NCBI RefSeq assembly: GCF_947497285.1
Contig: NZ_CANMFT010000001.1
Coordinates: 496,001-560,000 of the forward strand
Length of the DNA stretch: 64,000 nucleotides
Direction of reading: 5' to 3'
Source: an uncultured Aliiroseovarius sp.
GTDB lineage: Bacteria; Pseudomonadota; Alphaproteobacteria; Rhodobacterales; Rhodobacteraceae
In this document: in pieces, positions 33,029 through 35,473 of the stretch
Numbering within the stretch: position 1 is the first letter of the stretch
Layout of the letters: every line of letters starts with the position of its first letter
Notes under the pieces: model-generated
Told to the model about the DNA's origin: nothing
Database searches by the model: none
The model's input: the letters and a program-made list of their open reading frames with translations, nothing else
Translations under genes and position numbers: made by a program

Positions 33029-33277
33029 TCAGTGCAACCGCGCGCGCACCTTGTAGCCTTCAACCGTTCCTTCACCCAGCTTTTTCAGGGCTTCCAGCCG
33101 GTGCAAGCCTTCAATCAGCACATAGCCTTTGGCGTCTTCGCGCACGCGGATGGGCGTTAACTGTCCGTTCTCCAGAATATCCTCGGCCAAGGCATTGGCT
33201 TTGTCGTCCTCCAACGTCTTCAGGCGCTTGACCGGCACACGGATGGAGGCGATGGGAAGCGTTTCTTTTTTCAGCAT
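33029..33277 (-). CDS. Stand-alone ParB/sulfiredoxin-like domain protein
   Basis: An 82-residue protein that consists only of a ParB N-terminal-like domain: a strand IASIRVPVKRLKTLEDDKANAL, the helix AEDILENGQLTPIRVRED, and LIEGLHRLEALKKLGE, which corresponds to the GxHR box of ParB/Srx-fold nucleotide-binding proteins. No helix-turn-helix or dimerisation domain follows, so it is not a chromosome-partition ParB. Its role is unknown. The ATG at 33277 was taken; a GTG five codons upstream is also possible. It stands alone between the helicase and the small RNA array. Confidence 0.65.
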   Translation of the reverse strand: MLKKETLPIASIRVPVKRLKTLEDDKANALAEDILENGQLTPIRVREDAKGYVLIEGLHRLEALKKLGEGTVEGYKVRARLH

Positions 33278-33369
33278 GTCCCAAGCCTGCACGCTAAGCA
33301 GAAAATAAGCCAGCGTTATTGGATGAGTTCACCGTCCAAGCGTCCGGCTTCCATCCCGTTCGGACATAC

Positions 33370-33412
33370 AAAAAAAACGGCGACGCCCGGGAGGAGGTGA
33401 GCGCCACCGTTT
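33370..33412 (-). terminator. Last hairpin of the array doubles as terminator
   Basis: On the minus strand AAACGG...CCGTTT closes the eighth hairpin and runs directly into eight T residues (A8 at 33370-33377 on the plus strand). This ends the DUF1127-sRNA transcript and also carries a CCTCCTCCC loop. Confidence 0.85.
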
Positions 33413-33703
33413 CTATGTGATGCGGATCCCTGGGAGGAGGTAGGAACCCGACGTCAGAAGGTTTGGGGCCTGGGAGGAGGTAGACCCGTCACCGTATCGG
33501 TTCAACCCCGGGAGGAGGTGGGGCGAACCGGATCTTTGGGGGTGCAGTGGCGCCAGGGAGGAGGACGGCGCCACCGCGACCCGCGGACCTTCTAAGGGAG
33601 GAGGAAGAAGGCCCGAAACTTTGGTGATTGAGCGGCGAGGCCGGGGAGGAGGTCGACCCCGCCGCCAATCAAAGCCACCACCCGGGAGGAGGGAGGTGGT
33701 GGC
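33370..33703 (-). ncRNA. ccsR: Array of eight CCUCCUCCC-loop hairpins (CcsR/cuckoo RNA family)
   Basis: Nine-base GGGAGGAGG occurs eight times on the plus strand, at 33389, 33432, 33472, 33510, 33556, 33596, 33644 and 33684 (start positions, 38-48 bp apart). On the minus strand each reads CCTCCTCCC in the loop of a separate hairpin whose stems differ in sequence but are complementary within each unit. Examples are GCCACCACC/GGTGGTGGC (33674-33703), GTGGCGCC/GGCGCCAC (33547-33574), CGGTTC/GAACCG (33498-33530), CCTTCT/AGAAGG (33588-33611) and GATTG/CAATC (33626-33670). The units at 33418-33456 and 33460-33493 have weaker stems. The array begins 8 bp after a DUF1127 stop codon. This layout matches the CcsR RNAs of Rhodobacter sphaeroides, processed from a DUF1127 (ccaF1) mRNA. 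The motif resembles the anti-Shine-Dalgarno end of 16S rRNA. Confidence 0.88.
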
Positions 33704-33711
33704 CAGAAAAC

Positions 33712-33927
33712 TTAGTTGCCGTAAACGGCCATGCGCGCCACCAAGCGGACCGAAGCGCGGGCAATGCCCAGATCTTCCAGTTCGCGGTTGCTCAGCGCAT
33801 TCAATTCGCGCACGGTTTTGCGGAACAGCGCGCGGGTTTCCACCTGCTCTTTCCATTCGGCAAAGCGGGCGGCCAGACGGTCGGCAATGCCGACGGGGGC
33901 CAGAAGGATTTCGGTCGCGTGTGTCAT
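33712..33927 (-). CDS. DUF1127 small protein (CcaF1-like)
   Basis: A 71-residue protein whose second half is the DUF1127 domain: RKTVRELNALSNRELEDLGIARASVRLVARM, with the LxxLSxRELxDLGI core. It is Arg-rich with no membrane segment. The homologous small protein in Rhodobacter sphaeroides, CcaF1, is an RNA-binding protein that affects maturation and turnover of the CcsR RNAs made from the same transcript. The gene lies immediately before the eight-hairpin array. Its ribosome binding site is poor (GTAAG repeats only), so translation may be weak or controlled. Confidence 0.88.
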   Translation of the reverse strand: MTHATEILLAPVGIADRLAARFAEWKEQVETRALFRKTVRELNALSNRELEDLGIARASVRLVARMAVYGN

Positions 33928-34028: not shown

Positions 34029-34056
34029 AGATGGGGGGAATGCTGCAGATGCACAA
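34029..34056 (-). promoter_or_regulatory. Candidate RpoH-type promoter for the DUF1127-sRNA unit
   Basis: On the minus strand TTGTGC (34056-34051) and CCCCATCT (34036-34029) are 14 bp apart. CCCCATCT is an exact match to the CCCCATNT -10 element of heat-shock sigma factors; the -35 match is weaker. It is about 100 bp before the DUF1127 start. CcsR loci are known to be under RpoHI/RpoHII control. Confidence 0.4.
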
Positions 34057-34078: not shown

Positions 34079-34095
34079 TATGCAAAAATTGCATA
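34079..34095. promoter_or_regulatory. Perfect palindrome TATGCAA-N3-TTGCATA
   Basis: Two 7-base half-sites separated by AAA form a perfect dyad, upstream of the RpoH-type promoter candidate for the DUF1127 gene. The regulator is unknown. Confidence 0.45.
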
Positions 34096-34396: not shown

Positions 34397-35473
34397 ATGT
34401 CGGATATGCGCGAAAAGATTATGGGCACATTGTCCTCCATTGCCTTGCCTGATGGTGGGGATCTAGCGTCACGCGATATGGTGCGCGCGCTGACTGTCGA
34501 AAACGGGGCGGTCAGTTTCGTGATCGAAGCCGAGACCCCGGAAAAGGCAGCAGGTATGGAAGCACAGCGCCGCGCCGCTGAAGCGGCAATTGCCGCGCTG
34601 GACGGGGTCGAGCGCGTGTCCGTAATCCTGACCGCGCACGGCCCAGCAGCATCCGCGCCCAAAGCCCCGAACCTGAAGGTAGGTGGCCATCCCAAACCGC
34701 AGGCCGGACCGTTGCCGGTGCCCGGTGTCACCCATGTGATCGCCATTGCCTCGGGCAAGGGGGGCGTGGGGAAATCCACGCTCAGCTCCAACCTCGCCGT
34801 CGCACTGGCCCGTCAGGGGCGCAAAGTTGGGCTTCTGGACGCCGATATCCTTGGACCTTCGCAGCCCCGCATGATGGGCACCAGTCAACGCCCGTCGTCA
34901 CCAGATGGGGAACAGTTGATCCCCGTCGAAGCGCATGGCGTCAAGATGATGTCGATCGGGCTGATGTTGAAATCCGACCGCGAAGCCGTCGTGTGGCGCG
35001 GCCCGATGTTGATGGGCGCGCTGCAACAGATGCTGTTTCAGGTCGAATGGGCGCCGCTCGATATTCTGATCATCGACTTGCCGCCGGGCACGGGTGATGT
35101 GCAACTGACACTGGCGCAGAAATCGCAAATCACCGGAGCGATTGTGGTTTCGACCCCACAGGACGTGGCCTTGCTGGACGCGCGCAAAGCGATCGACATG
35201 TTCGATAAGCTGAACGTGCCGATCCTGGGGTTGGTTGAAAACATGTCCACCTATGTCTGCCCCAAATGCGGTCACGAGGCGCATTTGTTCGGTCACGGCG
35301 GTGTTCGCGACGAGGCCACCGAGCTGGGCGCACCCTTCCTTGGCGAAATCCCCTTGTCGCTGGATGTGCGCCTGGCGGGCGACAGCGGCACACCTGCCGC
35401 CGCGGGCGAGGGGTCAGTGGCCGATGCTTACACCAAGTTGGCGCAGGATCTCATTGCGCGCGGGATCGCCTGA
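34397..35473 (+). CDS. mrp: Mrp/NBP35 family iron-sulfur carrier ATPase
   Basis: A 358-residue protein with an N-terminal MIP18-like (DUF59) domain (residues about 1-80) and a ParA-type P-loop domain: [21 protein letters not shown] (deviant Walker A), [33 protein letters not shown]. The CPKCG pair in [19 protein letters not shown] is the CxxC that binds a bridging iron-sulfur cluster. It delivers clusters to target proteins in the cytoplasm. It is transcribed alone and ends in a strong terminator. Confidence 0.93.

Follow-up and report, generated by a model that had tools for sequence, protein, structure and literature searches.

An eight-hairpin array that looks like four CcsR-type RNA units behind a DUF1127 gene of Aliiroseovarius

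What kind of element is formed by the motif GGGAGGAGG, which recurs eight times next to a small gene in the window (the whole 64-kb stretch of Aliiroseovarius DNA analysed here), and what could it do for the cell? The copies, which start at 33389, 33432, 33472, 33510, 33556, 33596, 33644 and 33684, all lie on a single strand and within one array, with successive spacings of 43, 40, 38, 46, 40, 48 and 40; shuffled windows held 0.54 copies on average and none of 100 reached eight. Count, positions and shuffles thus bear out the original prediction of eight copies spaced 38–48 bp apart. The whole genome holds 15 copies against 10 for the reversed control, and the eight of the array are the sole cluster, the seven others being at background level. 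When the minus strand is folded, all eight copies fall, as had been claimed, in the loop of a hairpin of their own, each showing CCUCCUCCC, and the full array has a folding energy of −166.2 kcal/mol, where 100 shuffles gave −121.6 (z = −8.1). The U8 end ascribed to the last hairpin is also in place: the tract, at 33370..33377 on the minus strand and 3′ of hairpin 8, is terminator-like in sequence and presumably acts as an intrinsic terminator, while a terminator scan with a loop limit of 8 nt did not have it among its calls.

Throughout the genus the loop is nearly invariant and the stems change. In an alignment of 20 of the 21 genus arrays (that of G402, which contains Ns, was excluded, and hairpin 1 of G397 is absent, cut by the chosen coordinates), double changes, affecting both sides of a pair, were found at 51 of 101 base pairs; the shuffle mean was 31.9 and none of 500 shuffles reached 51, a count that should not be taken for a probability, as the genus relatives share ancestry. 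Paired cells made up 90.6% in the alignment and 36–49% when the partners were slid by one to three columns, a control that retains this ancestry, and the weakest of five covariation measures, that of further pair types, was reached by 7 of 500 shuffles. Reading along the minus strand, compensatory change affects 6 of 11 pairs in hairpin 1 (33673..33704, loop motif 33684–33692), 3 of 18 in hairpin 2 (33625..33671, loop motif 33644–33652), 7 of 10 in hairpin 3 (33584..33615, loop motif 33596–33604), 9 of 16 in hairpin 4 (33540..33582, loop motif 33556–33564), 9 of 11 in hairpin 5 (33498..33530, loop motif 33510–33518), 7 of 9 in hairpin 6, which is made of two helices (33460..33493, loop motif 33472–33480), 5 of 12 in hairpin 7 (33419..33455, loop motif 33432–33440) and 5 of 14 in hairpin 8 (33375..33412, loop motif 33389–33397), the last with 100% of its cells paired across the 20 arrays. 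RNAalifold, given this alignment, found six of the hairpins (2, 3, 4, 6, 7 and 8), missed hairpin 1 and mis-paired hairpin 5. Stems that did not co-vary in relatives would have told against the original prediction; compensatory change is seen in all eight hairpins, so that its picture of changing stems around a fixed loop stands.

Directly upstream of the array and on the same strand lies a gene coding for a CcaF1-like DUF1127 protein of 71 aa (33712..33927, minus strand; Pfam PF06568, 34.1 bits against a cut-off of 23.3), and a DUF1127-like motif was found in all 21 genus loci. Beyond this gene and a conserved upstream region, mrp is divergently oriented (34397–35473, plus strand). Downstream of the array, a small open reading frame of 87 aa (33029–33292, minus strand) is ParB_N-like at 23.0 bits, below the Pfam cut-off of 26.3. 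To compare this arrangement with that of Rhodobacter sphaeroides, we used the sole genome among 395 of the family, G046, with a COX1 fragment 100% identical to PDB 1m56, which we take to be the R. sphaeroides protein; a CcsR1 match of 106.2 bits at its locus (L173) is consistent with this identity. There too a 71-aa DUF1127 gene, to whose product the window protein is 41% identical over 70 aa, is found with a divergent mrp. The published accounts describe four named CcsR RNAs in R. sphaeroides, cut from the 3′ UTR of ccaF1 by RNase E together with CcaF1 (PMC10253847, PMC8625941), an RNA-binding protein acting in CcsR maturation (PMC10253847), the ccaF1-CcsR operon being transcribed from an RpoHI/RpoHII promoter (PMC3320616) and its CcsR RNAs destabilised by PNPase (PMC7866481). 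The window shares with ccaF1-CcsR1-4 (CIN1/cuckoo, RF02791) the upstream 71-aa DUF1127 gene and the divergent mrp, CCUCCUCCC loops in what look like two-hairpin units, and, as discussed below, paired upstream boxes and the string TTGTGC-N15-CCCATNT. The locus belongs to a described RNA type, CcsR/cuckoo: gene order, loops and covarying stems agree with the earlier claim of a DUF1127-linked array of this kind, with a fixed anti-Shine-Dalgarno loop.

How is such an array to be counted? CcsR/cuckoo-type RNAs have two to four hairpins (PMC4504443), and the R. sphaeroides RNA RSs0680a consists of two stem-loops (PMC3927594, section 2.7). The Rfam model of CcsR1, RF02791, is 83 nt long with a gathering score of 65.3 bits; an Rfam search in gathering mode reported nothing for the locus, and the array is not filed as RF02791. 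In E-value mode the covariance-model search suggested along with the original prediction gave what was hoped for in part, four full-length matches that tile the array without reaching a gathering-level score (26.9–44.0 bits, E-values from 2e-9 to 3e-4). On the minus strand these span hairpins 1 and 2 (33627–33710, 44.0 bits), 3 and 4 (33539–33619, 37.1 bits), 5 and 6 (33458–33535, 26.9 bits, E = 2.8e-4) and 7 and 8 (33372–33455, 37.2 bits). When the whole window was searched, matches were confined to the array and three of the four units were retained, the third and weakest not being recovered; four genus relatives showed two or three units at E 0.01, never four. Of the seven units at the R. 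sphaeroides-identified locus, one passes the gathering score (106.2 bits, the rest at 39.4–47.3), hence we understand this cut-off as marking CcsR1 proper and not the array family as a whole. Because full-length CcsR1 matches tile the array four times and RSs0680a has two stem-loops, the array looks like four CcsR-type two-hairpin units, on matches that lie below gathering. Layout, for which we used motif spacing since neighbouring local folds overlap and make their linker lengths useless, gives a less clean picture: mean spacings in 20 of the 21 genus arrays are 39.8, 46.4, 38.8, 45.7, 36.8, 38.5 and 42.8, the final two breaking the short-long pattern of dimers. The resemblance of even-numbered hairpins to each other (mean identity 0.443, where odd-odd and odd-even pairs both have 0.324) likewise fits dimers only partly. 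Other models matched as well: ar14 (RF02344) twice, at 55.4 and 45.7 bits, below its gathering score of 58.8, which it passes in three of the four genus relatives scanned (L050, L025 and L039, not L041), and, weakly and in E-value mode, ar7 and a Streptomyces RNA.

Counted in this way, the locus is not the expanded one that had been announced from a comparison of eight hairpins with four RNAs. The R. sphaeroides-identified locus (L173:3707–4457) has seven units of two hairpins each, with 14 loops; five of these units are near-identical and about 114 nt apart. The window array, with eight loops in what look like four units, is thus the smaller of the two; that seven units stand there against four published CcsR RNAs may be a matter of strain, assembly or naming. 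The window also differs from that locus in that its eight stems all differ and are joined by short linkers, whereas the linkers there are long. Counting copies in relatives, as had been advised, upheld eight as the number of the genus and revealed a much wider range beyond it. The motif pattern was found in all 21 genus genomes, hairpin order is maintained throughout the genus alignment, and 19 of them have eight copies of the core CTCCTCCC in the array, the two others, with seven, having one degenerate loop (G395) or Ns in the array (G402); eight hairpins seems to be an old condition that is nearly fixed in the genus. The exact two-motif pattern was matched in 304 of 395 family genomes; 44, the window's genome included, have seven or more exact pairs of the motif on a single strand, a rough lower bound, as the reversed control has matches of its own in some genomes, eight of them in G277. 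In 26 folded 3-kb family loci we counted from 1 to 26 hairpins, their spacing often alternating between short and long, as in dimers; eight of these loci have at least eight hairpins, seven of them in one run, with the caveats that the array of L037 is broken by a 341-nt gap and the count of L015 includes one distant motif. Core-motif clusters in 40 distinct family loci ranged from 2 to 26, with at least eight in 20, in a sample biased by 15 loci chosen for a high pattern score or as R. sphaeroides or genus mate. In size, the window array thus falls inside the span seen in its family. The longest array (L022, G146:C1:334949–336119) has 26 hairpins in a higher-order repeat of about 140 nt, apparently a recent tandem duplication. 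Class-wide, the pattern matched in 22 of 387 genomes, 5 inside the family and 17 outside, the latter mostly with one or two pairs. Nine were counted in a class relative of 7.4 Mb (G774), which has several separate sites with two to four CCUCCUCCC motifs, like the multi-copy rhizobial ar14 type, and three genomes of another family, f9, share a similar single CCUCCUCCC pair (G421:C1:2640745, G535:C2:162539 and G747:C1:2180475), which is probably not due to chance and may belong to a different two-motif RNA.

What such an array would do can be approached from its relatives. The NfeR1/ar14 RNA (RF02344) of rhizobia carries the identical loop on hypervariable stems; unlike the window array, with its eight hairpins in the 3′ UTR of a DUF1127 gene and ar14 matches below gathering, NfeR1 is a free-standing small RNA with three hairpins and a sigma-70 promoter of its own (PMC10746234, PMC7143759). 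In Sinorhizobium meliloti it acts at the ribosome-binding site to silence ntrB and transporter mRNAs, and mutation of its three loops abolishes the silencing of ntrB (PMC10746234). SmelA075 and SmelA099 of the same organism also have CCUCCUCCC loops on variable stems, with three and four hairpins and several copies per genome, in which they differ from the window (PMC3927594, section 2.7). We infer induction, processing and target pairing from these relatives, and consider it quite probable that the locus produces a stress-induced DUF1127 mRNA, the 3′ UTR of which is cut into small RNAs that block ribosome-binding sites. The operon would consist of the CcaF1-like gene and of a 3′ UTR with four CcsR-type units, two CCUCCUCCC hairpins each; stress would elicit an mRNA that starts at the upstream promoter and ends at hairpin 8 and its U8 tract, and this mRNA would be cleaved to give two-hairpin small RNAs, RNase E and the DUF1127 protein being the probable agents. 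Their stems would hold the loop open even as the stem sequence drifts, and the loop, complementary to Shine-Dalgarno sequences, would pair with ribosome-binding sites on mRNAs for transport and carbon metabolism and so block their translation.

Candidate targets are found in the window's own genome, where GGAGGAGG stands 3–9 nt before an ATG 11 times, at 10 sites, against one for the reversed control. Frames of at least 40 aa follow at eight sites, and six of the seven scanned belong to a Pfam family: malic enzyme, DUF4212, cytidylate kinase, a Virulence_fact-domain protein, an ABC ATPase and an NMT1-like protein. Across the 21 genus genomes, the full 9-mer complement was matched at start sites 33 times, three of them inside the array, against 8 for controls. 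Its most recurrent instance is the ribosome-binding site of a DUF4212 gene, GGGAGGAGGCTT[T]CATG, in 9 of the 21 genomes (loci L227, L212, L214, L215, L216, L219, L220, L221 and L235), the gene being recognised by Pfam in the window copy and by near-identical protein starts in the other eight. The exact pattern is absent from 11 of the 21 genomes; in G395 the match is one of the string. A few other genes with the loop complement recur, in two genomes each. The complement could reflect a strong Shine-Dalgarno site conserved for its own sake, and DUF4212 as a target of the array is, on sequence, a lead, not proof.

A second explanation, which we regard as unlikely, has the uncut array act as a protein sponge, the repeated loop titrating an RNA-binding protein, possibly the DUF1127 protein, with loop number as capacity. 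CsrB titrates CsrA in this way, and sponges of this sort are typically built of many copies of one constant loop carried on differing stems; array size, moreover, varies among relatives and reaches 26 hairpins. That CcaF1 binds RNA and acts in CcsR maturation (PMC10253847) would suit it too; yet the loop is a Shine-Dalgarno complement, the NfeR1 loop of S. meliloti acts by base pairing (PMC10746234), and the R. sphaeroides array is cut into separate RNAs (PMC10253847, PMC8625941). Rather less credible still is a plain structural role without action in trans, in which the hairpins would guard the DUF1127 mRNA against exonucleases or set the rate of its decay: a fixed loop is not required for protection, but this one is nearly invariant while the stems change, even if the position at the 3′ end of the gene, the terminator-like last hairpin and the effect of PNPase on CcsR in R. 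sphaeroides (PMC7866481) would agree with it. A DNA-level or chance G-rich repeat devoid of RNA function, which the G/A-rich 9-mer and its seven further genomic copies might suggest, has almost nothing left to it and we reject it, as it is contradicted by clustering on one strand (0 of 100 shuffles), by compensatory changes in eight stems and by the presence of the array in 21 of 21 genus genomes.

Upstream of the DUF1127 gene, on the minus strand, two exact TGCA-N6-GCAT boxes, the promoter-proximal and LsrB-like one at 34040..34053 and the distal one at 34080..34093, lie 40 bp apart, and a possible RpoH-type promoter read from the sequence, TTGTGC-N15-CCCATCT (34029..34056, minus strand), overlaps the proximal box. 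TTGTGC-N15-CCCATNT resembles the consensus of RpoH promoters. The same layout, with TTGTGC-N15-CCCATGT, can be read in the R. sphaeroides-identified locus, and a promoter scan of the window locus returned no sigma-70 site. With at most one mismatch allowed over both boxes, the pair is present 39–40 bp apart in all 21 genus loci, which are closely related and not independent: it is exact in 13 of them and has one mismatch in the other 8, and none of 1050 shuffles contained it. It is also present in 33 of 44 family loci, or 30 of 40 (18 exact) after four duplicates were dropped, and in 0 of 2200 shuffles; L019, L023 and L036, anchored on stray motifs and devoid of a box, were excluded before the count, and the ten misses include L161, L165 and L167, with stray-motif anchors, and L022, with 387 upstream bases. 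In real DNA, cut into 700-base stretches, none of the 474 taken from 80 named COX1 loci had the pair; three of 510 stretches from other loci did, all three from array-containing loci. The single box has 162 strand-matches genome-wide, and 6 in the window against 4.7 by chance, so that a lone box carries little meaning, in contrast to the conserved pair. These paired TGCA-N6-GCAT boxes upstream of a DUF1127 gene are what is new here.

In sequence, the two window boxes match the published LsrB site of the NfeR1 promoter, TGCA-N6-GCAT (PMC10746234). In Brucella, VtlR activates three DUF1127 genes and AbcR2, its motif being given as CAATGCAGCCATGCA (PMC12595884), while another published VtlR box reads GCAT-N3-TG-N3-T (PMC7486931). 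Allowing two mismatches, CAATGCAGCCATGCA overlaps the distal box in 28 of 40 family upstream regions against 1 of 400 shuffles, and is found in 2 of 21 genus upstream regions against 1 of 210 shuffles; the window's own upstream region is without it, its best match lying elsewhere with 4 mismatches, the same as in shuffles. As for the regulator, the window's genome has 21 LysR-type matches above the Pfam HTH_1 cut-off. One LysR-type protein (L177:793–1737, minus strand), whose best PDB match is 9hh1 at 252 bits, has an N-terminus whose first residues resemble VtlR/LsrB, which makes it a candidate. For the seven of the 21 proteins run against NCBIfam, no VtlR- or LsrB-named model was among the best 25 per protein, nor above cut-off. 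The trxB neighbourhood, considered as a home of the LysR gene, did not yield one: an Lrp-like gene was read there from the sequence, and no LysR gene was seen among the ORFs listed. The excerpts of the literature searched gave no link between VtlR or LsrB and ccaF1/RSP_6037.

We propose that the operon has two inputs, a stress sigma factor and a LysR regulator, the latter a prediction. More tentatively, and with somewhat more doubt than belief, we suggest that across the Rhodobacteraceae the DUF1127-CcsR operon may be under a VtlR/LsrB-type LysR regulator acting through two boxes, one of which overlaps the RpoH-type −35, and that the array may be the adjustable-dose output of the circuit that drives DUF1127 genes, AbcR and NfeR1 in rhizobia and Brucella, its length, up to 26 hairpins, setting the dose. 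The consequences of the analysis bear first on counting: one RNA of the R. sphaeroides type equals two hairpins, and with the unit so corrected, array size varies widely between genera and is nearly fixed within one genus. As to regulation, the promoter boxes would connect the CcsR circuit of Rhodobacter with the LsrB/VtlR circuit described in rhizobia and Brucella, two circuits that are treated apart in the excerpts of the literature consulted.
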